Part shown: piece by piece, positions 1,483 through 22,387 of the stretch
Layout: each line of letters opens with the position of its first letter
Numbering within the stretch: position 1 is the first letter of the stretch
From: a virus
Strand: one strand, 5' to 3'
Virus record (IMG/VR): IMGVR_UViG_3300008116_000058
Span: 1-64,000 of that record
DNA length: 64,000 nt
The notes under the pieces: model-generated
Database searches by the model: none
What the model saw: only the letters and a program-made list of their open reading frames with translations
Told to the model about the DNA's origin: nothing
Position numbers and translations under genes: made by a program

Positions 1483-2550
1483 TTACTTCTTAATGCCAGC
1501 GAGCGTCTTGAATCTCTCTGCCATTTGGTTACCACCAGCAACAATTGGTTGTGATGGTTTTGTACTTGCAACTGCCTTACTTGCCAAACCTTCGGTGATA
1601 GTAGTTGCAGTTGTATTTTTCTTCTTAACAACTGATCCACCCAAATTAAACGATTCGGCCATAATAGCATAGGTTAATTTAACCTCACGTACACTCGTAG
1701 TGAGATCAAAGTTTTCGACAACCTTCATCTTTTGTTCATTGTTCAAACTAAATTGCTTGAACAACTTGTTGGTATAAAGCAACTTGGCATTCAACAAGTT
1801 AACTTCATTGATTTGGCTGCGCAAAATTTCAACGGTCTTCATTGCTTCATCACGTTGTGCGGTGACTTCTGCAATTTGTTCCTCATAAACGGACTCATCC
1901 TTTTCAGAGTCGTCGTCATTCTTTTCCTTTTCTTCTGCCTCACCATCTTCCTTCTTGGCTTCACTTAGACCCTCTTCGGATTCAAGTTCAGCGAGAAGTT
2001 CGTCAAGAGAAATCTCTTCGATTTCTTCTGCGGCAGGAGCAGCTGCGGCATCAGGAGCAGGTGCTGGAGCAGGAGCAGCTGCGGCATTAGGATCCGCAGG
2101 AGCGGCTGGTGCAGCGGCCATTGGGGTATCAGACACAGGAGCAGCTGGAGCAGGTGTGTCAGACACAGGAGCAGGAGCAGGTGCTGGAACAGCAGTTGGA
2201 TCTGCTGGTGCAGCAGGAGCAGCCATCATGTTTGGATCGGCTGGAGCTGGTTCACCTTCTTCTTCCATTGCATCCTTTTCGAGTTCGGCAATAATTTCTT
2301 CCAATTCAGCATCACTGATTTGGTCTTCTTGTGCCATACCATCTTCTGATGGTTGTGTCATAGTGTCGTTTGAAGAAATAGCATTACCAGATGACATACC
2401 TTCATCTGCGGCTTCTTCCTTTAGTCTTTCTGCGAACAATGCTTGCACACGTTCACCGAAGGCTTCTTCAAGTGCTACCTTTGCATTTGCAAGAGCGGTA
2501 GCACGAACTGCCTTAGCGTCCGCAAGCGCTTCTTTTAATAGATCTGACAT
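1483..2550 (-). CDS. 22: Prohead scaffold core protein, T4 gp22-like
   Basis: 355 residues; internal scaffold around which the prohead assembles and which gp21 then degrades. The position between protease and capsid genes is that of T4 gene 22. The N-terminus (MSDLLKEALADAKAV) and residues 30-60 are helical and charged. Residues about 95-170 are an Ala/Pro low-complexity tract with repeated PAPAPAP and VSDTP units. The C-terminal third carries a predicted coiled coil and the block NLLNAKLLYTNKLFKQFSLN, which in my knowledge is typical of gp22 C-termini in marine T4-like phages. Several L-x-E sites would let the protease shred it. SD AAGGA precedes the ATG. The low-complexity part creates a long spurious open frame on the other strand. 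Confidence 0.85.
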   Translation of the reverse strand: MSDLLKEALADAKAVRATALANAKVALEEAFGERVQALFAERLKEEAADEGMSSGNAISSNDTMTQPSEDGMAQEDQISDAELEEIIAELEKDAMEEEGEPAPADPNMMAAPAAPADPTAVPAPAPAPVSDTPAPAAPVSDTPMAAAPAAPADPNAAAAPAPAPAPDAAAAPAAEEIEEISLDELLAELESEEGLSEAKKEDGEAEEKEKNDDDSEKDESVYEEQIAEVTAQRDEAMKTVEILRSQINEVNLLNAKLLYTNKLFKQFSLNNEQKMKVVENFDLTTSVREVKLTYAIMAESFNLGGSVVKKKNTTATTITEGLASKAVASTKPSQPIVAGGNQMAERFKTLAGIKK

Positions 2551-2727: not shown

Positions 2728-3243
2728 ATGTCTAAAGATTCAAAAACACAGCTTAAAACACTCATTAAGAAGTTGATATATGAGGTGTTAGATGAAGCTG
2801 AACGTGAAACTATCGTTGATAAAAAGGAGATTCAGTTGAATCCTCCTAATACATTTGAATCATATTTGAAACAAAACGTGGGTGTTTCATTTACAAATGA
2901 AGAAAGAGTAGCATCTACAGTTCCAAACATACGTACTCCCTTTTCACGTACCCAATTTGAAATTCGTTATAAAAGTACCGAAGATATTTTAAACGGTGGT
3001 AAAATGGAAAAGATTAACAAAACCACCGTAGTTAAAAAGATTCGTTCTGGAAACTTGTTGGCATATAAGAGTTTTACTTTGATTGAACCAACACAAAAAC
3101 CTGAATCCCCCGATCCAAAAAAGCCAGAACCAATCAAAGTGACAATTATTACATCTGACAGTTTCACTAATATCAAAGGTGATACACAACTGTTACCAGA
3201 TTTCCTTCAGAAAATAAATGACGCTGGCAATATAGGACTATAA
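2728..3243 (+). CDS. Hypothetical protein, plus-strand cassette gene 1
   Basis: 171 residues, not recognised. It is one of only three genes in the window on the plus strand. The N-terminal 35 residues are an amphipathic charged helix (KTLIKKLIYEVLDEAERE), a type of start shared by several head and neck genes here and containing an I-x-E protease-like site. The rest is a mixed alpha/beta sequence with a proline-rich stretch near residue 125. It ends one base before the next gene starts, so the two are probably co-transcribed from the motif at 2705. A structural or head-associated role is inferred only from location. Confidence 0.75.
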   Translation: MSKDSKTQLKTLIKKLIYEVLDEAERETIVDKKEIQLNPPNTFESYLKQNVGVSFTNEERVASTVPNIRTPFSRTQFEIRYKSTEDILNGGKMEKINKTTVVKKIRSGNLLAYKSFTLIEPTQKPESPDPKKPEPIKVTIITSDSFTNIKGDTQLLPDFLQKINDAGNIGL

Positions 3244-3244
3244 T

Positions 3245-4192
3245 ATGGACAAAATCAGTGGAATAGTACAAACACACAATCCAAATAAAGAAGGTAAACA
3301 TCCGCATTTGATCAATCGATCAAAAGCAAGTCACATGTTGAACCCACAGAAAGTGGAAGATACAGATACCAATTTGGTTCCTCTTAAAGATTGGAAACCC
3401 GGTGATATTGAAATGTTTGCAAGTATGGGGTTCTCAGGAGTAAACTCCGGAGACGAAGGATATCACATGGAAGAAGACAGTCTTCCTACAGAACTTGCAG
3501 ATGAAAAGAAGTTTACACGACGTATATCCAGAACCAAAGATCATAAATGGGTACTCGAAAAGAAAAGTTTTTCAGAACCAAATGGTTCTTACAAATTAGA
3601 AAAAGTATATGGTAAACTAATGGGTACCGATAAAAATCCCGGTCTATTAGATTATTTTGATACATTAACAAACGAATTGACAGAAAATCTATATTTATAC
3701 AAAAGTATGAAATTAAAATCTATCATAGAAAACCTTCCAGCATCAAAGATGTCACCACCTCAATCTGACATCACCGCAGTAAGTAAACACGCTGTTGCTG
3801 AAACTACACACCCAGAACCAGTCGCACAAGCACCAGTGGTTCAACGTGGTCTATCCAAAGAACAAAAGAAGATGCTTCAAGAGTTGGTGTTTGAATATAA
3901 CAAATACAATGAAGTGTTGGAAGCACGTAAAACTTTGATGGAAGTCGCCAATAAGATGGGAAACATCGGTGAACTATCAGAAGCATACTTGGTAGAAAAA
4001 CTTCATGAAGGTAACAAAGAAGAAAACGCATGGTTCGAAGAAAAGACCATTCGTAAACATACTAACGAAATCAAAAAGATGACCACCGAATTCAAGAAGA
4101 TGGCAGCTGACTGTGAATCAAAAATGAGAGAAATGCAAGGTCTATATCAAGAATGTGGCATGATGTTGGAACGTTATTTCCACATGGAATAA
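3245..4192 (+). CDS. Hypothetical protein with C-terminal coiled coil, cassette gene 2
   Basis: 315 residues, not recognised. The N-terminal half is polar without an obvious domain. Residues about 195-315 are rich in Lys, Glu and Met, strongly helical, and probably form a coiled coil (from LSKEQKKMLQELVFEYNKYN to the C-terminus). It follows the preceding gene with no gap and is closed by a strong terminator hairpin at 4213-4240. The pair lies opposite in direction to the head genes around it, which suggests an inserted or inverted cassette. No function is assigned. Confidence 0.75.
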   Translation: MDKISGIVQTHNPNKEGKHPHLINRSKASHMLNPQKVEDTDTNLVPLKDWKPGDIEMFASMGFSGVNSGDEGYHMEEDSLPTELADEKKFTRRISRTKDHKWVLEKKSFSEPNGSYKLEKVYGKLMGTDKNPGLLDYFDTLTNELTENLYLYKSMKLKSIIENLPASKMSPPQSDITAVSKHAVAETTHPEPVAQAPVVQRGLSKEQKKMLQELVFEYNKYNEVLEARKTLMEVANKMGNIGELSEAYLVEKLHEGNKEENAWFEEKTIRKHTNEIKKMTTEFKKMAADCESKMREMQGLYQECGMMLERYFHME

Positions 4193-4257: not shown

Positions 4258-5406
4258 TCAGAAGTAATTCTTGTAATCAGATTTGAAGTTTTCTTCGAAC
4301 TTAGATTTGTCGAATGACAACGGCTCGCCAGGTTTGACAATATCAGAACCGGTCTTTGGTGTTGCCTTAGCTCTTGTACCAGCTGCGGCCGACTTTGTTC
4401 TTTCAATTCCAGCCTTCCTATCCTTTTCAGCAGCGGCCTTGTCATCATCCGCTTTCTTGAGCTTAGCTTGTTCCTCGTCACTGTCTTTTTTGGCCTTATC
4501 TACCTTTGCCTTTTCTTCATCATCCTTTTGAATCTGAGCCGTGTCGTCTTGACCATTCTTTGCGAGAGCAGTTAATTGATCAAAGATTTCTTTACCTCTT
4601 TTCTCATTTGGATTGACTGTAACAAATGTTCCGTCTTTTTGTCTATGACTCCACGCACCTTTTTCAAACTTGAAAATATTTGGAACGTTTCCAAGTTTTA
4701 CTTTTAACATCAAACCATCCTTGATATTAACAGTTGGGGTCAAATCAATGTCTTTAAACAAGGCTTCCACTTGTGCATCAACCTTCATACCAGAAACAAG
4801 TTTTCCATTAATAATATCAAAGATATCAAGAATATCCTTGATCACAGGCTTAACTTGTTCTTTTGTTGGACTTGCCACATTCAATGCTTTTAATGAAACT
4901 GATAATTGATTAAGTTTAGTCAAAAACGCTTTAATCAACTTCAAATCCTTTTCATTAACATTTGGATCCGCAGCAACATTTTTCTCACCACGACCTTCAA
5001 TGCCAGGTTGTGCATAAGTTGCATCCTCAGTAACAGGTGTTGCTGGAGTTTTTGGTAAACGAGGATTCATCACCTGACGTAATCCATAAGTAATGTTTAC
5101 CAACAATGGTATTAACGCCCCCAACTCCTTAGCAAATGTATTAATATCTGCCGAAGTCATTGCTTCTTTAACCAATTCTTTTCTCAACTGTTCAACATTA
5201 CCACCCAATTGTTTTTGAATAGATGCTTTGTTAAGATTACTCAATGCAACTGATTTAATTTTTTGAAGTAATGCTTTTGCATACTTAGCATCAGCAGGAT
5301 TTGACATCTTCAACGTTGACATCGTTTTAATACGATTAGCCAAACCGCCTGCAACCAATGGATTTTGTTTTACAGAAGTTAATTGTTTAGTCAAAACCGG
5401 AGTCAA
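4258..5406 (-). CDS. 3' part of a frameshifted head-module gene
   Basis: 382 residues from a TTG that is probably not a real start. The same frame is open and protein-like well upstream of it: a (Gly)n-Thr-Ala-Pro repeat, then a Pro-Glu-Pro-Thr-Lys-Pro-Gly repeat region, then the globular part beginning near TPVLTKQLTSVKQNP. It therefore continues the protein whose first part ends at 5403 in a different frame; one missing base near 5711-5722 separates them. The globular part is helical and not recognised. The C-terminus is very Lys/Asp/Ala-rich (KADDDKAAAEKDRKAG), followed by a basic tail ending in Phe. Read together, the gene would be 4258-7193, about 978 residues. A head-associated role is inferred from its place between scaffold and protease genes. 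Confidence 0.7.
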   Translation of the reverse strand: MTPVLTKQLTSVKQNPLVAGGLANRIKTMSTLKMSNPADAKYAKALLQKIKSVALSNLNKASIQKQLGGNVEQLRKELVKEAMTSADINTFAKELGALIPLLVNITYGLRQVMNPRLPKTPATPVTEDATYAQPGIEGRGEKNVAADPNVNEKDLKLIKAFLTKLNQLSVSLKALNVASPTKEQVKPVIKDILDIFDIINGKLVSGMKVDAQVEALFKDIDLTPTVNIKDGLMLKVKLGNVPNIFKFEKGAWSHRQKDGTFVTVNPNEKRGKEIFDQLTALAKNGQDDTAQIQKDDEEKAKVDKAKKDSDEEQAKLKKADDDKAAAEKDRKAGIERTKSAAAGTRAKATPKTGSDIVKPGEPLSFDKSKFEENFKSDYKNYF

Positions 5407-7193
5407 ATTAATTGGAGTACCACCGGCAAGTTTTGGCTCAGGTGTACCGGGCTTCGCTGGTTCTGGTTCTCCTGGCTTTGTTGGCTCAGGTTCACCGGGC
5501 TTCGCTGGTTCAGGTGTGCCTGGCTTCGTTGGCTCGGGTGTACTTGGAGTTGTTGGATCAGGTGTGCCTGGCTTTGGTTTTGGTGTTTTGCCACCGCCTC
5601 CACCGCCACCGCCTGGTGCGGTTCCACCGCCACCGCCTCCACCGCCTGGTGCGGTTCCACCGCCACCGCCTCCACCGCCTGGTGCGGTTCCACCGCCACC
5701 ACCTCCACCGCACCACCGCCTGGTGTAGCTGGGGTTGGAGGTGTTGAAGCTTCTTTATCATCTACAACAACATCTTTAGGAAATTCCAATTTATATTTTG
5801 GAAACTCTGCCATCAAACTTTCAATGATATCAACAGCAGTTTTTGCTTGTGGAATTTTCTTTAAATTGTCCACCAACTCTGAGGTTGATGCACCTTTTAC
5901 TTTAAATGTCTTTGCAACATCTTTTAGATATGTTGAAATTTCTTTTCCAATGTTAAACTTAAGATTCTCAACTGCTTTAAGTTGATTTGGATTCAATGTA
6001 GGTGCAGATGGAGTAACAGGAGTCGTTGGTGCTGTTGCAGGAGCAGATGTTGCCGGATCCGCTTCAGATAAAATATCTTGTACGATATTAGACAACATCA
6101 AAGATTCATTTTTAATTGAAGGAATTGCTCCTACAGTGGCTCCCACCGGAGCACCACCAGCTAAAGTTGCAACACCGGTTTTAACGCCAGCTCCAACGGA
6201 TGCTGATGCGCTTTCACCCTTTAACAAACCTAGACCTGTACGTAAAACAAAACTGACAGCCGTGGCAAGAATAAACACTTGTGAAGAAGCTAATACACCA
6301 AGACCCAATGTTCCTGCACTGATAGCTGCTGCAAAAGTTAACAAACCAATAATGATACCAGATTTAATTGGATTTTCACGTCCATATTTTCCTAATGCAT
6401 CGATGGTACTAAGAATGGTAGAAGTTTCTTTACCAGATGAATCTATCTTTGATAGTTTATCACGAAGCAACTTTTTCTTTACTTCAAACAAACGATCAAA
6501 ATCTTGTACTGGTTGAAGGTTTTGAAGTTTTGCCCATTGTGCATCAAATACTTCATTTAATTTACGTGCCAACTTTTCAACACCACCGACACCAGCAAAA
6601 GCAGTTCCGGTCAACATTGCTGGAGTTAAAAGTGTACCAGCAAATGCTAAATCACCTGCACCACTTGCAATTTGTTTACCCTTCTGCCAAATTCCACCGG
6701 CCCATCCACTCATCTTGACTGGAACAGAACCAACTTTATCAGGTATAGATTTATCAAATGTCTTGAGTTGACCTAAATAATCCCCCAAACTTCTTGTGAA
6801 GTTTTGGTTTCTGGCTTTAAGATATGCTTCGTTTCCTGCATCAGTTGTGGAACCTTTAACACCAAATTTATTTTGTACCCAATTGCCAAGTGTACCACCC
6901 AACTTACCACCGGTGGCTAACTTGTTGATACCAGCTCTAGCTTTTGCTCCCAAACCGGCAGCTTTTGCTGCAAATTGATCACCAAACTTTTCTTGAATAA
7001 GTTGTTCGGTAATCTCAAGATTTTCCAACTGAAGAATCAATTCTTTTTGAGCAGACAGTCCGTCAATATAGTGTTGAAAAAACTCTTTGGTTCTATCGCC
7101 AAAAAGTGATTCGTATTGATCAAAAAAAGCAACTTCCTCGGAAAGAAGTTGCTTGAAATATAAATTTTCAATTATCAGTTGAGTGTTGTTCAT
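5403..7193 (-). CDS. 5' part of a frameshifted head-module gene
   Basis: 596 residues as read. Residues 1-70 are helical and contain L-x-E/I-x-E sites (LIIE, LLSE). Residues about 75-120 are Gly/Ala/Lys-rich. About 260-330 contain two hydrophobic helices (IIIGLLTFAAAISAGTLGLG), so it may contact membrane or a hydrophobic core. From about residue 480 the frame enters the 33-base repeat and gives a nonsense-looking run of Val-Glu-Pro-His-Gln units to its stop at 5403, whereas the neighbouring frame gives clean Gly-rich and Pro-rich repeats. I conclude the true protein shifts frame at about 5711-5722. The start lies 3 bases after the gp21 stop. Function unknown; a gp67/gp68-like or injected head protein is possible by position. 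Confidence 0.75.
   Translation of the reverse strand: MNNTQLIIENLYFKQLLSEEVAFFDQYESLFGDRTKEFFQHYIDGLSAQKELILQLENLEITEQLIQEKFGDQFAAKAAGLGAKARAGINKLATGGKLGGTLGNWVQNKFGVKGSTTDAGNEAYLKARNQNFTRSLGDYLGQLKTFDKSIPDKVGSVPVKMSGWAGGIWQKGKQIASGAGDLAFAGTLLTPAMLTGTAFAGVGGVEKLARKLNEVFDAQWAKLQNLQPVQDFDRLFEVKKKLLRDKLSKIDSSGKETSTILSTIDALGKYGRENPIKSGIIIGLLTFAAAISAGTLGLGVLASSQVFILATAVSFVLRTGLGLLKGESASASVGAGVKTGVATLAGGAPVGATVGAIPSIKNESLMLSNIVQDILSEADPATSAPATAPTTPVTPSAPTLNPNQLKAVENLKFNIGKEISTYLKDVAKTFKVKGASTSELVDNLKKIPQAKTAVDIIESLMAEFPKYKLEFPKDVVVDDKEASTPPTPATPGGGAVEVVAVEPHQAVEAVAVEPHQAVEAVAVEPHQAVAVEAVAKHQNQSQAHLIQQLQVHPSQRSQAHLNQRSPVNLSQQSQENQNQRSPVHLSQNLPVVLQLI
5588..5722 (-). repeat. 33-base tandem repeat encoding Gly-rich linker
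   Basis: Units of 33 bases start at 5615, 5648 and 5681, with a partial unit before 5615. In the downstream gene frame each unit encodes Gly-Thr-Ala-Pro followed by seven Gly. The last unit is imperfect (one base short near 5711-5722), which causes the frame change described for the surrounding gene. Confidence 0.85.
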
Positions 7194-7196: not shown

Positions 7197-7808
7197 TTAT
7201 TTAACTTCAGAGATTATATCGTGAATCAACGATTCAATTTTTGCGTATTTGTTTACAGTAGTATTTTGTACAGACTCATTCAATGCACCAGTTGGAAATA
7301 AAAATGCTCCTCTGGTCGATGGATTACTTACAAAATCAAATGCAATAAGTTCAAAATCGTCTTGAACTTCATCTGCATTTTCTCTTACATTTTTACGTAC
7401 ACTTCCTAAACCACGACTACTAATACCCAACTTAATACCGGCCTTAAAAAGTGCTTTTAAAATATTACCACTTGGTGTAGGAAGTATTTCTACTTTACCA
7501 ACCAAATCATCACCATTCCACATCATTTCAACAACGTTATGACTGACGTTTTGAAGATTGACAACGCTACTGTCCGGATGGTCAAGTTCACCCAATGCAC
7601 GGCGTTCTTTTACGAAGTTGTCTTCATACTTCTTGACTTCACGTTCCAAAATATCTTTTGGATATACACGACCGTTTTGATTCTTTGCGTTTGCACGTTG
7701 AAGAACACCTTGCACGATCATAGATTTTGATGGATCGTCAGTTGCTTCATTCAACTGTCCACCAATTGGTTCAAAGAAAATCCAACCTGTTTGTACTGTT
7801 TTATCCAT
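7197..7808 (-). CDS. 21: Prohead core protease, T4 gp21-like (peptidase family S80)
   Basis: 203 residues, close to T4 gp21 (212). It cleaves scaffold, capsid and internal proteins at L-x-E or I-x-E sites during head maturation. GELDHP at 73-78 supplies the catalytic His (H77), and the serine loop is GISSRG at 128-133. The early segment on making a new gene product with local variation (NQNGRVYPKDILEREVKKYE) is also typical of the family. L-N-E occurs at 19-21 and again near residue 178, which would permit self-cleavage. It lies between a gene with a capsid-targeting-like N-terminus (7811-8350) and the frameshifted head gene, with only 2-3 base gaps. Assignment firm. Confidence 0.93.
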   Translation of the reverse strand: MDKTVQTGWIFFEPIGGQLNEATDDPSKSMIVQGVLQRANAKNQNGRVYPKDILEREVKKYEDNFVKERRALGELDHPDSSVVNLQNVSHNVVEMMWNGDDLVGKVEILPTPSGNILKALFKAGIKLGISSRGLGSVRKNVRENADEVQDDFELIAFDFVSNPSTRGAFLFPTGALNESVQNTTVNKYAKIESLIHDIISEVK

Positions 7809-10010: not shown

Positions 10011-11918
10011 TTATTCTAGTATGTTAGATTCATCCATCATGGATTTTTGTTTATTTTCGGAAATCAATGTTTGTTTTTCTTGTTTTGCAGTCTTGAGATA
10101 TGAGTCTAAAGTAGTCAATTCCTTATTGATACTTTCAAGACTAAACGGTGAAGATCCTGTGAACTTATGATTTGGGGATCTATCTGCTTTAAAATCCCTA
10201 TTCATTTCAAGATGACCGAGTGGATCTTCTCCGAATGGATAATTACTGGCCTTTTTCAATCCTTTTTGAGACGGACGTTCATAGTCTGGCTTTGACTTTT
10301 CCTTCAATGTAGGAATTTCTGCACCACCAGCTTCTCCTCCACCAGCAGGAGCGGATTCACCGCCAGCTTCTCCACCGGTTTCACCGCCTCCACCACCGCC
10401 ACCGCCACCGCCTTCTTCTGGACTAACTTTTTGGAATGACTTGGCAGGATCATTACCTTCTTCTTCAATCTGTTTAAATCTGTATGTCTGTTTTGCGTCA
10501 TCAACAATATCGTTTTTGATATTGTTCATGTCATCATCTGACATATGGAAAATTTCGTTGTATACCCACTTTTTACTAAACAACTTATTATCCAACATGT
10601 CTTTAGCGACAGATACCTTATTTGACCAAATGTCGATCTTTTCCTTTTCAAATACCGTTGATGGATTGGTAAGTTCCAAACTAAAATCAACCAAACTTGA
10701 ATCTCTGTATCCTTGTGCATACAAGTGTACAATACCAATCTTGGTCAATTCACTGATAAGAATTTGTTGAATACGTTGAATTGTACGAGAAAAACGAACA
10801 TCTTCTTGTGCCAATGTAGCTTTACCACTCAAATCTTCATCATAACTCAAGAACGCCTTAGGTATCTTGAGAGCAGCCATCATTTTCTTACGCAGATATT
10901 CAATATCGTCCGTGCCAGTGAATTCCATGCCACTAAGAGATTCAATGCTGGTACCACTATCACCACCACGAACAGGAAGATAAAAATCTTCAACCATGTT
11001 TTGAAGATTGAAACGAAGATTGTAATCACCACTTTTTTCATCGATATATGGTACCTTTTTGGTTTTAGCAATCAACTTTTCCATATATGAGTCAATCTCG
11101 TTTGGAGGAATATTACCAACGTCAATCTTGAAAATACGTTTTTCAGGAGCACGCATAATACGATGAATCAACATTGCGTCTTCCATCAAACTCAATTGTT
11201 TCCAAACGCGACGAGCACCTTCCAACATACTCTTACCATATGGCAAGAAGTTACTATCACTCAATAAACGAAAATGTGCTACTTGATAGTTTTCAAGATC
11301 TTCGACCTTACCACCGTCAGGTAGGTTGACTTGAAATTTGATATAGTTCTTATTATACAAATCACTGTTTTCAACACGGGTTACATTATAAGCACTAATT
11401 GGCTCAATCATATAAACTCCGTACTCGGGACTGATATAAAGTCTAAGATAAAAATCGCCGTACTTACACATGTTACGAACATAACTCCAAAGGTTAAATT
11501 CGATATTCATGATATCATAATACAAGTTACGAAGTATCTGTTTGATATTATCATTTGGTGTATTGATCACCAAAACATCTCCCATTTCGTTACGTGTCAA
11601 TGATTCATCCGCGTAAATATCCAATGCAGAACTAAGAATTGGATCCATGTCCATCGTATCATAATCTCTGAATAATTCGATACGAGCGGCTTGATAACTA
11701 AGGGTGAAATCTCTACTATACTGATTGTACGCAGAAGTACGAATACGATTAAAACGGTCACGTAGTGTGTTTCTATCCGTAGCGTATGCTACTTCATCGG
11801 TATCTACTACCTTTAACTTTTTACCACCAACGTTACGTACAATAACGTCTGTAGAGAAAAGTCTCTTAAGACGAGCAAATAGTGATCTGCTCTTTAAATC
11901 TGTCGGTTGATCTGCCAT
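10011..11918 (-). CDS. 20: Portal vertex protein, T4 gp20-like
   Basis: 635 residues (T4 gp20 is 524). It forms the dodecameric DNA entry channel and initiates prohead assembly. It starts with Leu/Arg-rich KSRSLFARLKRLFS, followed by SRDFTLSYQAARIELFRDYD, TMDMDPILSSALDIYADESL and PYGKSMLEGARRVWKQL, blocks characteristic of gp20-type portals. The AEKR-type stretch MRAPEKRIFKIDVGNIPPNE is also diagnostic. The C-terminal 130 residues are an addition: a run of ten glycines near residue 507 in a Gly/Glu/Ala tract, then a helical tail. It is directly downstream of the large terminase, as in T4 relatives. Late-motif variant at 11940. Confidence 0.95.
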   Translation of the reverse strand: MADQPTDLKSRSLFARLKRLFSTDVIVRNVGGKKLKVVDTDEVAYATDRNTLRDRFNRIRTSAYNQYSRDFTLSYQAARIELFRDYDTMDMDPILSSALDIYADESLTRNEMGDVLVINTPNDNIKQILRNLYYDIMNIEFNLWSYVRNMCKYGDFYLRLYISPEYGVYMIEPISAYNVTRVENSDLYNKNYIKFQVNLPDGGKVEDLENYQVAHFRLLSDSNFLPYGKSMLEGARRVWKQLSLMEDAMLIHRIMRAPEKRIFKIDVGNIPPNEIDSYMEKLIAKTKKVPYIDEKSGDYNLRFNLQNMVEDFYLPVRGGDSGTSIESLSGMEFTGTDDIEYLRKKMMAALKIPKAFLSYDEDLSGKATLAQEDVRFSRTIQRIQQILISELTKIGIVHLYAQGYRDSSLVDFSLELTNPSTVFEKEKIDIWSNKVSVAKDMLDNKLFSKKWVYNEIFHMSDDDMNNIKNDIVDDAKQTYRFKQIEEEGNDPAKSFQKVSPEEGGGGGGGGGGETGGEAGGESAPAGGGEAGGAEIPTLKEKSKPDYERPSQKGLKKASNYPFGEDPLGHLEMNRDFKADRSPNHKFTGSSPFSLESINKELTTLDSYLKTAKQEKQTLISENKQKSMMDESNILE

Positions 11919-11958: not shown

Positions 11959-13557
11959 TTATAATAACCAAGTTAAACTCTCTTTTTGATCTTTTAGTCC
12001 GGTAGGCATTTCCCACGACTGTTGTGCATTTGCGTTTTTTGTAGTATACACAGGAGAGCTTTGTTGTTCAGATCTATTGATACTACCCAACATATTACGA
12101 GTCATATCTATTGATTGTTGACGTAATTTCAAAGCGGTATCACGTACCCACAATCCAATTGCAAATGACATTACCAAATCATCATTGTAATTCTTCATTG
12201 CCTCGGCTTTACCATTATTCCAAATAAACGTATACAATTCATCAATTGTACGTGTTGACTGAATATTTATGGTCTTTTCACGCATATAACTTTCTAATCG
12301 TGAAATAATCAACTGTCTTGTTACAGATGTTGTAGTAAACCCCGGAGTCATCTTCTTTTCGACAGAATGGATTCGATTGGTCATTTGATGTTCCACGTCT
12401 ACATATTTTAAATCAGCACTACTATAAAACAAATTAGGATATTTTCTATCCAAGATTTGTTGAATTGTGCCCCAACCAATATTTAAATTTTCTACAATCA
12501 ACAAGGCGTTGTTATATTCTGTAGCAACATTGACCAACATATTGCCATAATCTTTGGTTCCAATTTGTCCTTTGTATTCCGCAACCTGCGTAAAACTTTC
12601 AATATCAATTACGTGAAATGCACTATAGTCGCCTCCATCACCACGAGCAACGTCCGCACATACCAAATATGAACGTGTATAGTCTGGATATTCCCACAAC
12701 CACAACAATTTATCCATACCTCTAGTTTCGACAGGAGCACGTACTTTTGTCTGTTTATAGAAATCAAGAATCGGCACATCAACTACAGTATTACCTGATG
12801 TAGCAAAGTCACAATCACATTCTTGTGCGGCCATCTTTGGACCAAGCAATTTTGTTTGTTCATCTCTCCAAGTTTGATCACGTTCAGGATGAAGATGCCA
12901 TGGCAAACGTATCGTGTGAAACTTATTCTTTTTACCTTCAGCTTCTACCCAAGTTTTATGAAAAAAGTTACCAACACCGTTTGGTGTTGATAACACGATT
13001 GCTTTACCACCAGTTGATAGTGTCGATTGTGCCGATGTCCAAATTTCATCGATGTTATCAATAAATGCGGCCTCGTCAATAATCAACATTGATAGTGCGG
13101 CCGAACGACCAGCGGTACCAGAAGATGATACGGCTTTAATTTGTGAACCATTCTTAAGACGCAATGATAGACGATTATCTTCGACACATGGAACTTTCAA
13201 CCAACTTGGAAGATTGTCATTGGCAAAACGTACACGGGTAACAATTTCTTTAGATGTTTCTTGTGTAATACTGATACACAAAATATTTTTGTCACTATTA
13301 AATACCATCAACCACAAACTATACGCACTACACAATGTGGTAATACCAAGCTGACGACTTTTTAAAATAATGTTATAGTCGTTATCAATAATCTCCTGTA
13401 GAGAATCATCTTGAAAAGGATATAATTCAAATGGTATTGTACCTCGTTTAGGATGTTGAATCTTGACGTACTTCTTCATAAAGTACATCGGGTTTTCAAG
13501 ACACTTTTTATATTCTGCCTTGATGATATCTCTTAACGATTTTTGATCATTCGACAT
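11959..13557 (-). CDS. 17: Terminase large subunit, T4 gp17-like
   Basis: 532 residues; ATPase and nuclease motor that packages DNA. Walker A is KSRQLGITT at 66-74, where T4 has SRQLGKTT: the usual Lys is Ile here, and K66/R68 in front may take over, as in other phages with the deviant form. Walker B is LIIDEA at 158-163, and VLSTPNG is the coupling motif. The RNase H-like nuclease starts at VCADVARGDGGDYSA (about 300), and NYNDDLVMS near residue 480 supplies its last acidic residues. The start overlaps the upstream gene by 11 bases, like T4 genes 16 and 17. Assignment firm. Confidence 0.95.
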   Translation of the reverse strand: MSNDQKSLRDIIKAEYKKCLENPMYFMKKYVKIQHPKRGTIPFELYPFQDDSLQEIIDNDYNIILKSRQLGITTLCSAYSLWLMVFNSDKNILCISITQETSKEIVTRVRFANDNLPSWLKVPCVEDNRLSLRLKNGSQIKAVSSSGTAGRSAALSMLIIDEAAFIDNIDEIWTSAQSTLSTGGKAIVLSTPNGVGNFFHKTWVEAEGKKNKFHTIRLPWHLHPERDQTWRDEQTKLLGPKMAAQECDCDFATSGNTVVDVPILDFYKQTKVRAPVETRGMDKLLWLWEYPDYTRSYLVCADVARGDGGDYSAFHVIDIESFTQVAEYKGQIGTKDYGNMLVNVATEYNNALLIVENLNIGWGTIQQILDRKYPNLFYSSADLKYVDVEHQMTNRIHSVEKKMTPGFTTTSVTRQLIISRLESYMREKTINIQSTRTIDELYTFIWNNGKAEAMKNYNDDLVMSFAIGLWVRDTALKLRQQSIDMTRNMLGSINRSEQQSSPVYTTKNANAQQSWEMPTGLKDQKESLTWLL

Positions 13558-14155
13558 GACTTAACTTCTCCAATTTCTTTTCAATCTTGAGAATCTGTTT
13601 ATCAATCTTTTTCAAATCGGCTTTCAGATCTTTCAAAATATTTTCTCTACGTTCAATCGTCCATTCATCCAAAGTTCCATCACCGTTTGGAAACGATATC
13701 TTTTGATGAGAAGATACAAAATCAAAACTTTCCTGCACCTTGGTACGAAACTCTTTGGCTTGACTCAATTGATTACGCAATAGTTTGTTTTGTTCATAAT
13801 CATCATACTTTCCTTCTACACGTAACTTGGTTTCAAACTTTGCAAGACATTCTTGACAACGACCGGTCTTATTATAAAGAATTTCATCATAACGATTGCC
13901 CCACCGAATATCCATATTACAATCTTTACAATGACGTTTGGTAGATTCAATCGTAGACGAACTGACATTGTTAATAGCACGTTTGGTGCCATTTTTCTTT
14001 ATCCACTTTTTACCATTTACGTCCTCCCAAATTTCACCCTCTTTACGAGATGCAAAATCGGAATCTGCAGTATAACCAACTTGAATAAAAGGACGTTCAC
14101 CATTGAGATAGTCCCTAACGATTGCCAAATTACTTTTTCCTGACGCTTTTTTCAT
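13547..14155 (-). CDS. Zinc-ribbon, coiled-coil protein upstream of terminase (small-terminase candidate)
   Basis: 202 residues. N-terminal 60 residues contain a beta-rich segment (EGEIWEDVNGKKWIKKNGTKR). Residues about 73-106 carry two Cys pairs, HCKDCN and RCQECL, spaced as in a zinc ribbon. Residues 165-200 form a strong Lys/Leu/Glu coiled coil. It overlaps the terminase start by 11 bases, the arrangement of T4 gene 16 (small subunit, 164 residues, also coiled coil), so a gp16-like role is a reasonable guess by position. I see no sequence match to known small terminases, and the zinc ribbon would be unusual there. Confidence 0.75.
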   Translation of the reverse strand: MKKASGKSNLAIVRDYLNGERPFIQVGYTADSDFASRKEGEIWEDVNGKKWIKKNGTKRAINNVSSSTIESTKRHCKDCNMDIRWGNRYDEILYNKTGRCQECLAKFETKLRVEGKYDDYEQNKLLRNQLSQAKEFRTKVQESFDFVSSHQKISFPNGDGTLDEWTIERRENILKDLKADLKKIDKQILKIEKKLEKLSHVE

Positions 14156-14176
14156 AACTTATATTTGTTTAATTAT

Positions 14177-14932
14177 TCATTCGATGAATGTATCATCAAA
14201 AACTTTAATAGCTTTCGAGTATGATTTTTTGGTTTCATCACTGACGTTATCTGTATATTGCCAGTTCCAAAATAACTCTTGTGGAGTATTAAATCCGTAA
14301 AATTCCAGTACAGCTTTTTGTGTTTGTGTAACATCTTTTCCATTCCAGTTTTGACCAATAGCAATAACACCAGCATCAATATTCTTAACAATATTGGATT
14401 CACCAAGGGTTGAATGACGGTTTTCAATCCACGTCAAACGTTCTATTAGTTTCTGATAAATACTGTTGGTCTGTCCCCAACGTATAGATGTAAAAAATAA
14501 AACTACATCACTCTCAAATAATGGTTTGCTAATCTTCCAAAGTTCATCTGATTTGTTATTGATACTTGCCCAACAACGATGATATCCAGTTGGATCTTTT
14601 TCTTTATCTTTTAACACCGCACCTTTTTCTCCACAATGATTGCCCCACTTGGATGACACATTTCCTTCACATACAAAAATATTGAGTTTGCTTGCATCAA
14701 TAAATTCACACTTATCACTACCCAATCTTTCACAAACTAACTTAGCCAATTTAGTTGACTTTGCTTCATCGTCCTTATGACCTTCCCAACGATTTGATGT
14801 GCCAATCAACAACACTTTCTTTTTGGTTTGAAGATACTTGATTGTGTTATCTAGCCGCAATTCATTTTTTTCCATGTCTTTTTGACTGGAATTCGCAGCA
14901 GCTTCAACCAAAAAATCGGAGAGTTTTACCAT
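14177..14932 (-). CDS. Flavodoxin-like (NADPH-dependent FMN reductase type) protein with capsid-targeting-like N-terminus
   Basis: 251 residues. From residue about 38 the sequence has a flavodoxin-like fold: KKVLLIGTSNRWEGHKDDEA (phosphate-binding loop after the first strand), a Cys pair region, then SDVVLFFTSIRWGQTNSIYQ, the family's active-site strand and loop, and a C-terminal helix. Such proteins bind FMN and use NAD(P)H. The first ten residues MVKLSDFLVE have L8-x-E10 exactly like the T4 internal-protein signal, and residues 11-37 form a linker, so cleavage would release the enzyme inside the head. Packaging is inferred; the fold call is fairly secure. It is flanked by the putative gp16 position and a tail structural gene; late motif 7 bases before the ATG. 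Confidence 0.8.
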   Translation of the reverse strand: MVKLSDFLVEAAANSSQKDMEKNELRLDNTIKYLQTKKKVLLIGTSNRWEGHKDDEAKSTKLAKLVCERLGSDKCEFIDASKLNIFVCEGNVSSKWGNHCGEKGAVLKDKEKDPTGYHRCWASINNKSDELWKISKPLFESDVVLFFTSIRWGQTNSIYQKLIERLTWIENRHSTLGESNIVKNIDAGVIAIGQNWNGKDVTQTQKAVLEFYGFNTPQELFWNWQYTDNVSDETKKSYSKAIKVFDDTFIE

Positions 14933-14939
14933 ATCGTCC

Positions 14940-14947
14940 TATAAATA
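14940..14947 (-). promoter_or_regulatory. Candidate late promoter motif TATTTATA
   Basis: Seven bases upstream of the flavodoxin-like gene ATG, in the gap after the structural gene. Confidence 0.5.
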
Positions 14948-14973
14948 TAATACAACAAGTCGTTTTTGTATTA

Positions 14974-17289
14974 TTAATTGTAATACGGCACCCTCTTGCC
15001 ATTGATCGATAACCAGCCATCCGGTGCTTTTAATGGACAAACCACATCAACGGTACCGGGAGTTGACGCCAATGTTGTACTAGTAACAGTCGCACTAACA
15101 GTTGCAGGTGCAGTAGTTGTAGGAACAGTAGCGGAGTCAGTAGCTTCCAAATCAGTAAACTTGCCTTTTTTATGATTTGTCCCATCTTGACCAATATCAA
15201 CATTGTTAATATTACCCACCGCCGTTGGTTTAATTTCCAATACGGTACTTGGGTTAATATAAACTTTTCCACCAATACCACCATCTGCCTGCGGACTAAT
15301 ACTTACAGTTCCTTTTTTAATATGAAACGTTGCATCGTTTGCAGTATGTGCGCCACTACCACTAACATCAAACTCGAAACGAGCTGCGTTTAACATGTAC
15401 AAACCTTGTTTTGGATTAGTTTGTTCGGTGGTAATAATCAAGTTGAATACTTTTAACCCATTAGTAGTATCGGATGAAATAACACCGGGAATAAGTTTAT
15501 TCAAAGATGATCCAGACGGATCAAACGACGTGATCGTTCTTAAATCAGAATATACTAAATTAGAGTTAACATCAAACAATTCTGATTTTATTTCAAACTG
15601 TTCACCCGCAACAGTTACAGGAAATGGTATACGAGACGTAAATATTTCAGGAGAAAAAGATGGTTCCGAATATGTCGATAACTGTAAGTCAGATAATGTG
15701 GATACACAATTTTTAGTGTATATTACCATCGTTCCATTAAACTGTTTACCAAATCGACTATAAAATGTATGAGGGTCTGGATGATACAACGACGATGACC
15801 GTTCATCCAAATAAATTTCTCCGACCTTAACTCCACGAACATTATCAAAATTTGGATCACCATTAACTTCGTTGATCAAAGAAGATGTTATGTAAAAACT
15901 AACACTTGCAGGTTGAGTTGTATCTGATTTGATAATTTTGGATCTGACTGAAAACTTATATGTAACATCTGGATAAAACCGCATGAAGTTACTGTCATAT
16001 GCCATTCCAGATTCATTCAACACCGAAGTTTGATCATATGGGGTGTATTCATGTGTAACACTTCCACCATTGGTATCATTTTTTACAATAATGTATTGTT
16101 CATTATTAGTGCTATTTGTAATAACCATTGCGTCCATCAAATATGATGAATCTCTAGTAAAACTGATTGTATTGGAACTACTAAACCAATAGTGATGTAA
16201 ATGTGTTGGGTTTGGAAATGATCCTAGACTTTTATAATAACTGTTTGGTGTGGCTGAATCTACTAAAGCCTGTGAATCAACAAAAGGTTCGTCTGCAATA
16301 ATCTCAAAATCACCGGCTGCACTTAAACTTCTACGATACAATTTGTGACGATAAATGTTACCAGAAAAAGTCTTTAGGTTAGTATATGTTACAAATGCAA
16401 CCGATTGATTGTATGATGAACTTGTAATAAATCTACCATCATACTTAACGTTTGTAATATTAGCAGACAAAGTACCATCTACAATATTTGAAATTATTTT
16501 CTTGTTTTTATTATCGACGTAATAAATTGGGTTCTTCAACTTGACCGTGTTTTCACTCAATACATCGGTAATAACGTTTGATGATGTTAAACTGGTTACA
16601 ATATCACCATCCAATTTAGTTGCATAGATATCTACCAATGCGTTTTTCATTGAAGATGAAACAACCAATGAACCATCTAAAAAAGTAAGACGATAATCAA
16701 TTGGAGTTGACCCGATATCAAACAATCCATAATCATCATTTTTCTTGGGGGTTACCGCATAAGTTGTAATTGGAGTATTATTAATAACTGTCAAATACCC
16801 CGAAGAATTGTCTGATGTAATTGGAACGAAAGTCGATGTTACTGACAATATGGGAGATTTATAAAATATGACCTTCGATGTATTTTGTACAGATGGATTG
16901 ATTTGAATATTACCAATCCAACGTATCAGTTTGTTTGTCTTTTCACGACCAACAATAATAACTTTACCAACACCATAAGGAGTATCGTTATAAACGTATA
17001 CCGATATTCTAACCGCGCCACCTTCCTTATAGGCGATGTTGTTGGTCTTAGCCACCTCAACATACAATGACCGACCCTGACTGTCTAAAACCTCAATTTG
17101 AATAGGACTATTAACTGCAAGTTTATCGGACCCATTTAACAAAAAAGTATTCTTACCAGCAGTAAACTTGGGTGAGTATTCCGATAATATAAAATACTCG
17201 GACAAAAACGAACTATCTTCAATATCGACTCGTAAATCAGATAAGTTCAGCTTTTGTCCGGTATTTCTTGCATTTGATATTAAAGCCAT
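14974..17289 (-). CDS. Predicted virion structural protein
   Basis: 771 residues from the ATG at 17289 (an upstream TTG at 17307 is also in frame but lies inside an inverted repeat). The sequence is beta-rich, Ser/Thr/Asn-rich, with no Cys clusters and no signal peptide, like phage tail or fibre proteins. The last 100 residues include a Thr/Val/Ala/Pro linker (about 720-755) and a compact end CPLKAPDGWLSINGKRVPYYN. No family recognised; a tail or neck appendage is inferred. A perfect 11-base inverted repeat covers its start. Confidence 0.7.
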   Translation of the reverse strand: MALISNARNTGQKLNLSDLRVDIEDSSFLSEYFILSEYSPKFTAGKNTFLLNGSDKLAVNSPIQIEVLDSQGRSLYVEVAKTNNIAYKEGGAVRISVYVYNDTPYGVGKVIIVGREKTNKLIRWIGNIQINPSVQNTSKVIFYKSPILSVTSTFVPITSDNSSGYLTVINNTPITTYAVTPKKNDDYGLFDIGSTPIDYRLTFLDGSLVVSSSMKNALVDIYATKLDGDIVTSLTSSNVITDVLSENTVKLKNPIYYVDNKNKKIISNIVDGTLSANITNVKYDGRFITSSSYNQSVAFVTYTNLKTFSGNIYRHKLYRRSLSAAGDFEIIADEPFVDSQALVDSATPNSYYKSLGSFPNPTHLHHYWFSSSNTISFTRDSSYLMDAMVITNSTNNEQYIIVKNDTNGGSVTHEYTPYDQTSVLNESGMAYDSNFMRFYPDVTYKFSVRSKIIKSDTTQPASVSFYITSSLINEVNGDPNFDNVRGVKVGEIYLDERSSSLYHPDPHTFYSRFGKQFNGTMVIYTKNCVSTLSDLQLSTYSEPSFSPEIFTSRIPFPVTVAGEQFEIKSELFDVNSNLVYSDLRTITSFDPSGSSLNKLIPGVISSDTTNGLKVFNLIITTEQTNPKQGLYMLNAARFEFDVSGSGAHTANDATFHIKKGTVSISPQADGGIGGKVYINPSTVLEIKPTAVGNINNVDIGQDGTNHKKGKFTDLEATDSATVPTTTAPATVSATVTSTTLASTPGTVDVVCPLKAPDGWLSINGKRVPYYN

Positions 17290-17314
17290 ATGTATTGTAA
17301 TTAACAATACATAT
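17288..17314. repeat. Perfect inverted repeat at gene start
   Basis: Arms ATATGTATTGT and ACAATACATAT (11 bases each) with a 5-base AATTA centre, overlapping the ATG of the structural gene. The right arm with the next two bases (ACAATACATATAG) recurs at 57274-57286. It may be an operator or a divergent promoter element. Confidence 0.6.
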
Positions 17315-17319
17315 AGAAA

Positions 17320-20300
17320 TCACTGGAAATTAATCCGTGAAAACCCAGCATCTTTGACGATCTCAAGACGGGTATCAACCATGTCTTTGAGTACATCCAA
17401 GTGACTAACAACCCAAACAAAGTCAAAATTACTCTTCAAGAATGAGAACAAATTAGCCATGGCAGACAAATGATCACTATCAGCACATCCAAACCCCTCA
17501 TCAATAGCAATAAAGTTAGGACGTGGTAGATTGGATACATTGATCAACGCAACTCTAATAGCCAACGAACTCACAAACTTCTCTAACCCACTTGCCAATT
17601 CCAAAGGCCACTTCTTGTCATCGTAAACAATGTATGCCATAATGTTCTTGCCATCAGTCTGAAACGAAACGGTAAACTCAACAATCTGATTAAGTATGTT
17701 GTTAACCTCAGATTCAATACCAGGCAACGCCTTAGAGATAATTTGATACTGAAGTCCATCTCTGGAAACGGCATCCACATAATAAGTGTAAGCATTATGA
17801 ATCTTTTCAGTCTCCTTCATTTCAGCAATCTTGGCTTCAATCTGAGACTTCTGATAGGTCCAATTGTTGATCTTACTCTTGGTGTCGGTAATATTAGAGT
17901 TAACATTACGAATGTTAAAGTCGATGTTCTTAATGTTTGCCTTAATGTCATCAATCGCCTTTTGAACCTTAAGATTCGATTCAATAGCGTCCTTTGCATC
18001 ATAATATTCTTTAATCTTAACTTCAATCGATTCCAACAAGTTCTTTTCCTTTACAATCGTATTCTCACGTTGTAATTGAAGATTTTCAAGATTAGAAATA
18101 TTCTTGGTTAACGTTGTTAGACTGTTAAGAAGATTTCTATACTCCTGAAATTGATTAGCAACAGTTTCAACGACACCCAACTTGTTTTTCACAGTAGTCA
18201 GTTTTTCAATCAGACCTTTAGCTTCAATCTTATCATTTTCAAGATCTTCTTTAGTCTTGATTGCATCTTGAACAAACACGTTGTTAACACAGAATGTACA
18301 ATTTGGATCATACTTGTGGTTTTCAAGTTTCTTCAACTTATCCAACTTATTTGTAACAATCAACTTCTTACGTTCCAACTGTCCTTCAATGTTAGACGCT
18401 TCCAATTTCAAAGTATTATACTCCGAATACTTGGACTCAATATCATCAGACTTGAACTTTTCAACCTTGTCATTGATTGGCTTGATGTCATTCTTCAACT
18501 TCTCAATGTTGGGAACCTCGGTATCATACTTCAACTGTTCACTGACGATTTTTCTGTCGGTATTAATACGTTGTGTTTCCAATCCACTTATATCAGTAGT
18601 TGTGACATTCACCTTGATCAACTGCTTAGTTGTCTCAGCAATCTTCTCATTTTCAACTTCACGACTATCCGTTAATGTTTTTAGTTCTTCGTCCTTTAAA
18701 CGAATAACAGATTCAGCATTATTGATATTGGTAGTCAATGTCTCCAACTCTGCGTTGTAATCGGTCTTGGCAAAGTTCTTCATCAAGATTGCCCATTCAC
18801 GCATCTTGTCATTTGCCAGTCCGTGCAACTTATCAAATATAGTAAGTCCCATAAACTGTGCCAATAGATCCTTACGTTCAGTCTGACCAAGATCAATGAA
18901 AGAACCAGTCTTACTGTTCTGAATACTCAATACAGTTAAAATAAAGTCATCATAAGTTCCAACATAATCACGAATCAAATCGTTAGTATTACGACGTGCT
19001 TCACCGTTGAGTTCAATTACTTGACCCTTTTCTTCTTTCCAAAAACGTACATCAACCTTGACGCTTCCTTTTTTATCAGCGTGACCAATACGTTCAATAA
19101 AGTAATCAACCTTATCAATTTCAAAGTTAAACTTACACTTGAACGACATCTTTTGTGTATTCATTACGTGAACGGCTTTAAAAGCACGATCACACTTGTC
19201 AAATATACAAAAGGATAATGCCGAAAGAATACTGGATTTGCCACTTGCGTTTGCAGCAAATAGTCCCACAACGTCTTTCATTTTGCTAAAATCAATTACA
19301 TTACCTTCGCCGTAACTGAACATATTATCAAACTCAAACCGTTTTGGCTTCCATCGAATATTCTTAGCGGTTAAATCCTTGACAATTTGATCATTCAACT
19401 CCTTGTTGATCTTTTCAACCTCACGAATCAAAGAGTCAGGAATATTAGTATGTTTATCTTGAAGATATTCCGCAATCAATTTGTTCTGATACGAAATATT
19501 TGAAAGACCGTGAATATTCAAATTTGGAACCGTTGAATTGTTCACACTTGAGGCCAACTGGTCCACACGTAGATAATTGATATCAACAATCTCAGTATGT
19601 TCACGAATCTGTGAGATGACCGTCTTGAGTTCAGTTGCAACCGACTCAAATGCTTTGATTCGAAGCGTGGTTTTCTTTGGAATATCCGTCAAATCGGTAA
19701 TCAAAGTTCCTTTGTTAACCTCGACAGTAAAATATCCATGGTCGTTCTTTACCTCAACGTGTTTGAATTTGAGAGTCTTCAAATCCCAATAAACAAACCC
19801 ATGACCTTTCAATTCTTCACCATGGTTCTGTTGAATCAATGAACCAGAATACACAACCACGGGTTTACGAATCTTTTCATCAATAACGTGATAGTTCTGA
19901 AGAATCTGATGACGATGAATATCACCCAACAAAATAATTTGATGTCCATCAAACAGTTCGTTTTTGGTGTTACTCGTAACTTTATACCCAATGTCAGTTA
20001 CAGCACTATCAACTGGTCCATGATATAGTCCAATATGATAAGAAGTGTTATTAACATAAATCTTGGGAATCTTTTCAAACTTAATATAATTCTCAGGTGA
20101 ATGTTCATCAAATACCGAGAAGTTATTGAACAAGATATCACCCAACTGATACACACCAGTATCCTTTAGATAAAAAAGATTTGGGTGTTTAAGAGCGTTA
20201 ACAATAGGACTCAAACTATCCAACCTGTTTTTGTTGGTTAGAGTTGCGTCATGGTTTCCAGCAGTAAGTATGGTTGGACGACGATCTGCCAAGTTTTTTA

Positions 20301-20529
20301 GAAACTGAGACGCAATTTCTACGCACTCAGGACTAAGATCACTCTTGTTGTGAAACACGTCACCCACCACACAAATAGCAGTGGTCTCGGGTGTCTTTTC
20401 AATTGCCTTATATAGGTTCTTGAACACCTCTGTATATTCCGCATGACGTTTAGTTAACAAAATATGAATGTCTGCCACGTGCAGAATATTCGTAAAGTTT
20501 GAAACGTCACAATTTAGTTTTGTAATCAT
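17320..20529 (-). CDS. Fused Mre11-Rad50 recombination nuclease (T4 gp47 + gp46 in one chain)
   Basis: 1069 residues in one uninterrupted frame. Residues 1-330 are a calcineurin-type phosphoesterase like gp47/SbcD: ADIH at 19-22, VGDVFHNK at 55-62, GNHD at 91-94, H170 in YHGP, and LGDIHRH at 201-207. Residues about 340-390 form a helical linker. From about 393 an SMC-type ATPase like gp46/SbcC begins: Walker A AANASGKSS at 425-433, Q-loop region, long coiled coil with a zinc hook CTFC near residue 700, signature ELASGLEKFVSSL and Walker B FIAIDEGFG followed by WVVSHLD near the end. In T4 and hosts these are two genes. The complex resects DNA ends for recombination-dependent replication. The family call is firm and the fusion is read directly. 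Confidence 0.95.
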   Translation of the reverse strand: MITKLNCDVSNFTNILHVADIHILLTKRHAEYTEVFKNLYKAIEKTPETTAICVVGDVFHNKSDLSPECVEIASQFLKNLADRRPTILTAGNHDATLTNKNRLDSLSPIVNALKHPNLFYLKDTGVYQLGDILFNNFSVFDEHSPENYIKFEKIPKIYVNNTSYHIGLYHGPVDSAVTDIGYKVTSNTKNELFDGHQIILLGDIHRHQILQNYHVIDEKIRKPVVVYSGSLIQQNHGEELKGHGFVYWDLKTLKFKHVEVKNDHGYFTVEVNKGTLITDLTDIPKKTTLRIKAFESVATELKTVISQIREHTEIVDINYLRVDQLASSVNNSTVPNLNIHGLSNISYQNKLIAEYLQDKHTNIPDSLIREVEKINKELNDQIVKDLTAKNIRWKPKRFEFDNMFSYGEGNVIDFSKMKDVVGLFAANASGKSSILSALSFCIFDKCDRAFKAVHVMNTQKMSFKCKFNFEIDKVDYFIERIGHADKKGSVKVDVRFWKEEKGQVIELNGEARRNTNDLIRDYVGTYDDFILTVLSIQNSKTGSFIDLGQTERKDLLAQFMGLTIFDKLHGLANDKMREWAILMKNFAKTDYNAELETLTTNINNAESVIRLKDEELKTLTDSREVENEKIAETTKQLIKVNVTTTDISGLETQRINTDRKIVSEQLKYDTEVPNIEKLKNDIKPINDKVEKFKSDDIESKYSEYNTLKLEASNIEGQLERKKLIVTNKLDKLKKLENHKYDPNCTFCVNNVFVQDAIKTKEDLENDKIEAKGLIEKLTTVKNKLGVVETVANQFQEYRNLLNSLTTLTKNISNLENLQLQRENTIVKEKNLLESIEVKIKEYYDAKDAIESNLKVQKAIDDIKANIKNIDFNIRNVNSNITDTKSKINNWTYQKSQIEAKIAEMKETEKIHNAYTYYVDAVSRDGLQYQIISKALPGIESEVNNILNQIVEFTVSFQTDGKNIMAYIVYDDKKWPLELASGLEKFVSSLAIRVALINVSNLPRPNFIAIDEGFGCADSDHLSAMANLFSFLKSNFDFVWVVSHLDVLKDMVDTRLEIVKDAGFSRINFQ

Positions 20530-20534
20530 ATATT

Positions 20535-21497
20535 TTATAAATTTATCTTCAAACGAAACAAAGATTCGAAATCTAAAACGGGAGAGTTATTTATAACTTC
20601 CCAAGTCTTTTCAAATCCGATTTCCGATGGATCTTTACCATCAAGTTTTACCAACTTTGTTTCAATACTGTTCTTCAACAAAAACTCACTTATTCTAATG
20701 GAGTCTGATAAAGCATCATTGTCCAAAACAATATTAACACTTTGTACTTTATTACTGATCAACGCAGATTTCAACTTATTTGAAAGTGTTTTTCCAAACA
20801 AAGGAATAGCGTTATTACGAATCGAAATTGCATCAAATGCACCTTCGACTAATGTAATCGGTTGGTTGTAATCTACAAACATCTCAAATCCGATAATGTC
20901 TTTTGAGCCAAAACTGTTTACATATTTCATTTTAGCATCTTCAAAAATGCTACGAGTTGAGTAAAAGTTTAATTGACCAGATGCATCATATGATGGAATT
21001 AAAACTCTTCCATGAAATTGACCACCCTCACAGTACCCAATATTATATCTCAATACATCATATTTGGTAATGTTTCTCGACTTTAAGTACTGAAGTGCAT
21101 GTCTACCAATCAAAGTAAGTTCGTCATCATAAAATGATCGATATTCTTTTGGAAGAACCAAGGGTACAACAGAAATACTCTTCTTCTCAGAAAAGATTTC
21201 CAAAATAGCGTTAATATCGTTCTGAGGAAGTTTTCGGTACGTCTCGGTATTTTTATAGATTTGACCAAGATATTCACCAGACAGTCCAAGTTTCTTGAAC
21301 AACGTTTTCAGAGATGTCCCAGATAACCCACACACCCAACAATGATATTTGCCGGTAACTGTATTTATTTCCAACTTTCGTTTGTAGTGTTTACAGACGG
21401 GACAATAATAAACCGCGTCAGTACCCTTACGAATCTTCGCAGATTGTTTGAGCGCTTTATTTAGAATTGTTACGACTTCCGTCTGATACAACAACAT
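20535..21497 (-). CDS. DNA primase, DnaG type (T4 gp61-like role)
   Basis: 320 residues. Zinc-binding domain C32-x2-C35 and C53-x2-C56 (CPVC, CWVC) as in CHC2-type primases. The catalytic Toprim domain includes LVEGAFDAI (Glu, about 210-218) and NIVLDNDALSD (Asp cluster, about 253-263). It lays RNA primers for lagging-strand synthesis with the replicative helicase, which is not in this window. It lies between the recombination fusion and the resolvase, 5 bases from the former. Assignment to the primase family is firm; the symbol is withheld since similarity to T4 gp61 itself was not tested. Confidence 0.9.
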   Translation of the reverse strand: MLLYQTEVVTILNKALKQSAKIRKGTDAVYYCPVCKHYKRKLEINTVTGKYHCWVCGLSGTSLKTLFKKLGLSGEYLGQIYKNTETYRKLPQNDINAILEIFSEKKSISVVPLVLPKEYRSFYDDELTLIGRHALQYLKSRNITKYDVLRYNIGYCEGGQFHGRVLIPSYDASGQLNFYSTRSIFEDAKMKYVNSFGSKDIIGFEMFVDYNQPITLVEGAFDAISIRNNAIPLFGKTLSNKLKSALISNKVQSVNIVLDNDALSDSIRISEFLLKNSIETKLVKLDGKDPSEIGFEKTWEVINNSPVLDFESLFRLKINL

Positions 21498-21537
21498 GGG
21501 TATACTGTATCAGATACCAAGTCCAAATCAACTTATT

Positions 21538-22041: not shown

Positions 22042-22059
22042 AACTTATTTTTTGTTTGA

Positions 22060-22356
22060 TTATGGCTTGTACTTTGTAGTATCTTTTACTCTGTAAAATC
22101 CCTCGCCTGGATTTTTTGCATCACCCAAAACTTTGTCTTTGAAGTTCTCTTTTTTGTTGGTAGCCATACCAATTGTAAATCCCGGTTCAATGGTCAAATC
22201 TATAGAAAGTTTTGAATATCCAAAATCTCCCTGAAGACCGAGAATAGCAGTGTTTGTACCAGCTTTCTTGGCATCAAATGCTCCACCAGTTTTGTCAGAA
22301 GCGTATCTTTGTTCAAGACTCTTTGTTAAAGAGGTTCTTTTGATTTGTTCGGCCAT
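22060..22356 (-). CDS. Small hypothetical protein
   Basis: 98 residues, not recognised. It has a charged N-terminal helix (EQIKRTSLTKSLEQRYASD), a Gly-containing middle and a beta-like segment (YSKLSIDLTIEPGFTIGM). It lies between the resolvase gene and a large adhesin gene with a late-motif copy upstream, so it may be a separate late transcript. It could be a virion component; nothing specific supports this. Confidence 0.65.
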   Translation of the reverse strand: MAEQIKRTSLTKSLEQRYASDKTGGAFDAKKAGTNTAILGLQGDFGYSKLSIDLTIEPGFTIGMATNKKENFKDKVLGDAKNPGEGFYRVKDTTKYKP

Positions 22357-22384: not shown

Positions 22385-22387
22385 TGA

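Follow-up and report, generated by a model that had tools for sequence, protein, structure and literature searches.

Two overlapping open reading frames among the head genes of an uncultured phage raise the question of whether this virus encodes two proteins at this point, or a single protein whose gene merely appears broken. The DNA analysed (the window) is a stretch of 64,000 nucleotides taken from a virus record (G000) of 80,068 bases. The first frame, ORF1 (5403-7193, minus strand), starts at an ATG and encodes 596 residues that make up the N-terminal part of the gene. The second, ORF2 (4258-5406, minus strand), has a TTG start and, in the -1 frame relative to ORF1, encodes the C-terminal part in 382 residues. 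The initial annotation described the pair as one head gene split by a frame change inside a Gly-rich tandem repeat, and proposed an assembly or sequencing error, a phase-variable switch by repeat slippage or programmed shifting as the cause.

Both ORFs were recovered at these positions, and the frame of the first is indeed lost in a 33-base repeat, with a Gly-rich and then PEPTKPG continuation in another frame. ORF1 is sensible to approximately position 5711 (...TPPTPATPGGGA), after which it runs through out-of-frame VEPHQ-type repeats to its stop. The point of frame loss falls in a GC-rich, Gly-coding tandem repeat of 33-base units (5591-5711, minus strand; 3.7 copies with 95% matches), made up of GGN runs with T-A-P. 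Immediately past a stop at 5757, the -1 frame opens and stays open as far as the stop at 4260; it contains, in order, Gly runs spaced by T-A-P, PEPTKPG repeats and the second half of the protein. A second tandem repeat with 24/48-base units (5433-5574, minus strand) encodes the PEPTKPG/PEPAKPG segment in this -1 frame. The listed overlap of the two ORFs is four bases; the two frames are open together over about 350 bases. When the complete record was searched for the split-gene stretch, a single match was found, in addition to a weak match located in the portal gene, at its Gly run.

We used the N-terminal half as a query against 2.9 million viral contigs and obtained 14 loci, four of which (L003-L006) match at 100% identity, with 483/483 residues of the sensible part of ORF1 (5745-7193) identical. 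The C-terminal half identified three loci (L017-L019), located on the same contigs as L003-L005, which match the translated region 4261-5433 at 100% identity. All three near-identical contigs that reach past the repeat (L003, L004 and L005) contain a single 990-codon ORF in place of the window's two. Chance is not a concern for this observation, since both frames correspond to a single uninterrupted ORF in these contigs. At the nucleotide level, the window aligns with L003 over 13104 bases with 1 mismatch, with L004 over 12391 bases with 0 mismatches and with L005 over 13193 bases with 0 mismatches. Each of the three overlaps contains one gap, in which the same 37 bases, placed at 5711, are missing from the window. 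The fourth contig, L006, shows 1 mismatch to the window in 7542 bases and carries the same 37 bases, with its contig end inside the repeat. A further 16178 bases of the L005 record (L030) correspond to window 13194-29371 at 100% identity and without gaps, so that over about 29.4 kb the sole difference between the window and this record is at the repeat. Each of the four near-identical contigs has a different metagenome number, which does not by itself make the samples independent; among the papers searched, none mentions these numbers. The 30 bases spanning the window's own junction occur in 0 other viral contig records (a count that excludes the window itself, as its own record may be absent from the scans), compared with 5 for the left flank and 3 for the right flank.

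We therefore favour, with a probability of roughly 0.8, one uninterrupted gene of about 990 codons in the virus, with the window's contig in error at the GC-rich repeat, or built there on a faulty read. The two halves of the protein would be joined by a long low-complexity linker, Gly-rich at first and then composed of Pro, Glu and Lys, that is encoded by the 33- and 24-base repeats; absence of 37 bases from the contig would abolish the frame and make the gene appear as two overlapping ORFs. The 990-codon ORFs likewise uphold the description of the locus as one gene. The notion that the final repeat unit is one base short holds for the frame (37 is 36 plus 1, and not a multiple of three) and fails for the size, since the window is 37 bases short of the complete allele. 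A separate reading takes the ORFs of 596 and 382 codons at face value, as two distinct overlapping genes. ORF2, however, has only TTG codons as nominal starts ahead of its first ATG at 5322, the last hundred codons of ORF1 are a wrong frame of the repeat, and the two ORFs are fused in the close relatives L003-L005. This leaves two genes with next to no likelihood.

With a profile scan, the number of related loci rose to 19. Eight of these cross the repeat linker (L003, L004, L005, L009, L010, L012, L014 and L016), and three more distant loci (L025-L027) span this position and have no tandem repeat there. The frame is open across the point in 11/11 relatives that arrive from an intact frame; among these records the break at the repeat is seen in the window only, the contig end of L013 apart. 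This count was made after setting aside the five contigs that end inside the linker (L006, L007, L008, L011 and L013), two that end ahead of it (L015 and L028) and L029, in which a separate single base is lost further upstream. The 11 relatives represent fewer than 11 independent lineages, because L003, L004 and L005 are near-identical and both L025-L027 and the pair L009/L010 are identical over their shared stretches. That 5/19 related contigs terminate within the linker indicates that it is hard to assemble, and it is at this hard-to-assemble 33-base repeat that the window is broken. Length differences between related contigs in the linker amount to 114, 15, 21, 24, 12, 3 and 6 bases, all of which are multiples of three (the difference of 6 sits close to the contig end of L011). 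The exception is L013, where the last bases at the contig end are short by 1 base (and a further 3), and the frame is left there.

These relatives also bear on a phase-variable on/off switch operating through tandem-repeat slippage. The tandem repeat is located exactly where the frame is lost, as such a switch would have it, but its units are 33, 24 and 48 bases long and whole-unit gain or loss never alters the frame. An off state is absent from all other records that cross the repeat, L013 leaving the frame only at its contig end. We consider a switch very improbable. Programmed -1 ribosomal frameshifting within the repeat would account for the -1 position of ORF2 and for the stretch of about 350 bases over which both frames are open. 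Relatives nevertheless encode the same protein in one frame, with no shift needed, and neither a slippery heptamer of the form X XXY YYZ (0 in any frame of the overlap, 5405-5757) nor a homopolymer of 5 or more was detected in the overlap, making programmed shifting extremely improbable; given the intact ORF in close relatives, any such shift would have to be specific to the window. Of the three causes offered by the initial annotation, these two are thus disfavoured, and assembly or sequencing error provides the best fit to the 37-base gap, its identical flanks and its 1 base of end homology.

An analysis of the sequence surrounding the gap gives some insight into the nature of the loss. The homology available at the ends for losses at this place is 13 bases for a loss of 30, 15 for 33 and 8 for 36, compared with 1 for the 37 bases found missing. 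Simple slippage is therefore expected to yield an in-frame product, and the 37-base loss is not an ordinary slippage product. It looks like either an in-frame 36-base contraction combined with one missing base, or a homology-free join. Folding of the repeat strand in L003 did not reveal any excess structure (z -0.40). There are 8 non-overlapping short motifs of the two-tetrad G-quadruplex type in 150 bases of the repeat; this count indicates only a G-rich stretch.

The junction also raises the question of whether the deletion is a real variant in the sampled population, with some or all virions carrying the 37-base loss and making a truncated protein with a nonsense tail. In support of this, apart from the missing bases the contig does not differ from its relatives and gives no other sign of poor quality, and linker length truly varies between relatives. 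Repeats furthermore evolve faster than the rest of a genome, such that identical flanks are compatible with a real variant, and a pure repeat collapse in the assembly graph would not be expected to leave a junction with only 1 homologous base. Against it stand the frame kept in every relative that crosses the point from an intact frame, the seven in-frame length differences (the L013 contig end excepted) and the near absence of homology that could drive a 37-base loss. On balance we regard a real deletion variant as unlikely. The short version could even be a circulating allele, whereby a large head-associated protein is truncated by rare non-unit deletions in the Gly-rich repeat, with the virus surviving the loss of the protein's C-terminal half; we hold this to be quite improbable. 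If true, that half would be dispensable or conditionally useful.

Returning to an error in a single record, the 37-base loss would have arisen in sequencing or assembly rather than in the virus. Given the 1-base-homology junction, this requires a faulty read, a chimera or the closing of a gap, which may have occurred in a stretch that assembles badly. Comparable cases have been described. Assembly errors give rise to numerous false frameshifts, and these vary from one nearly identical genome to the next, according to the part of PMC11017572 drawn on here. As in the present case, nearly identical genomes differ in gene breakage and the break is local to one assembly; the part drawn on covers bacterial genomes, whereas our case is one virus record judged from its assembled sequence (PMC11017572). 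Annotation of the split as two genes, a pseudogene, a switch or a recoding event is best avoided, and nothing in our analyses marks the locus as mechanistically new.

The pe/ppe proteins of Mycobacterium tuberculosis, including pe_pgrs, are Gly-rich. They are unrelated to the protein described here, whose phage gene encodes Gly runs separated by T-A-P and a repeat of Pro, Glu and Lys. The resemblance is at the level of the genes: in the portion of PMC12817950 cited here, mycobacterial pe/ppe genes are subject to frequent misassembly and their structural variants are mostly in frame. Repetitive coding sequence, real length changes that mostly keep the frame and assemblies that are often wrong are shared between the pe/ppe genes of Mycobacterium tuberculosis, pe_pgrs included, and the locus in the window, as far as that portion goes (PMC12817950).

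A comparison with the more distant loci reveals that L025-L027, at 47% identity, contain the gene as one ORF of 1125 codons without a tandem-repeat linker. The linker repeat is therefore a later or dispensable addition. The linker might act as a flexible spacer, the length of which is free to vary in frame. Separately, L029 is one base short near its position 6226 when compared with L025-L027, which are identical to each other, and its copy of the gene is broken at residue about 177, outside any repeat. This shows that single records easily carry such breaks.

The genes surrounding the split gene are those of a T4-type head module, with prohead protease, portal and terminase located nearby (PF03420, PF07230 and PF03237, respectively). 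The split gene is adjoined by a prohead core serine protease of the T4 gp21 type (7197..7808, minus strand; PF03420, E 1e-30; phrog_207, E 2.4e-57). Upstream and on the same strand are found a portal protein of the T4 gp20 type (10011..11918, minus strand; PF07230, E 2.4e-70), which contains a Gly run of its own near 10382-10412, and a T4-like terminase large subunit (11959..13557, minus strand; PF03237, E 7.4e-14). Downstream of the split gene, at the position where a T4 scaffold gene would sit, is an ORF (1483-2550, minus strand) for which no meaningful match was obtained in the PHROGs or Pfam scans. We presume it to be scaffold-like, a name taken from its position. Between the minus-strand head genes, the window contains two plus-strand ORFs of 171 and 315 codons (2728-4192), with only weak family matches.

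The portal gene provides a separate observation. L006 lacks 162 bases of this gene (window 10405-10567), in a loss that ends at the Gly run and remains in frame. This loss has 1 base of homology and abuts a GGN run, and is thus of the same character as that in the window; its junction shares the hexamer GTGCGG with the window junction at 5711.

The intact protein itself yielded little by way of homology. Only weak matches were found in PHROGs and Pfam, none of them meaningful. Among PDB sequences, all hits were at E 0.0013 or weaker, with the best stretches wholly or mostly in the low-complexity linker. A tblastn search of 50,697 records of cultured phages gave no match for either half, and 0/266 pattern stretches from bacterial and archaeal genomes encode a relative. 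For the intact 990-residue protein of L003, an AlphaFold model based on 10 rows was too poor for a fold search (mean pLDDT 45.8, pTM 0.27). Helices dominate the secondary structure predicted from this poor model, and the linker falls within an unstructured stretch at about 483-610. The designation as a head gene agrees with the neighbourhood, but the protein has no match to a characterised head-protein family. The intact gene probably encodes an uncharacterised, helical protein of the T4-like head module, going by this model and the gene's surroundings, and the product may act inside the phage head.

A possible link to the adjacent protease is provided by the motif L-S-E-A at residues 375-378 (6060..6071, minus strand), in which Ser, Glu and Ala (residues 376-378) show no variation across 10 aligned sequences. 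The prohead protease of T4 and other phages cleaves after Glu, as stated in the part of PMC5694885 consulted. Because T4-type proteases cut at this residue, S376-E377-A378 is a possible candidate prohead-protease site, and the neighbouring enzyme could perhaps cut the protein at S-E|A. The arrangement recalls the T4 core and internal head proteins, which in the same part of that source are cut by the gp21 protease (PMC5694885), in that the gene adjoins a gp21-type protease, contains a conserved Ser-Glu-Ala and has a T4-type portal nearby. Unlike the T4 head proteins, the protein described here has no family match to any of them, and its cleavage site is a prediction from sequence.

In-frame variation of linker length, together with changes in C-terminal domain order, in an uncharacterised protein is possibly worth a later look. 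The genes compared for domain order are located at L003:5912-8881, L009:3065-5947 and L014:6001-8802. Two C-terminal domains, directly behind the Gly/Pro repeat linker, swap their order between relatives: A-B is found in L003, L016 and L025, and B-A in L009 and L014. The first pair matches residues 589-724 of L003 to 715-849 of L009 (E 1.4e-28), and the second matches 752-831 of L003 to 629-708 of L009 (E 7e-19).
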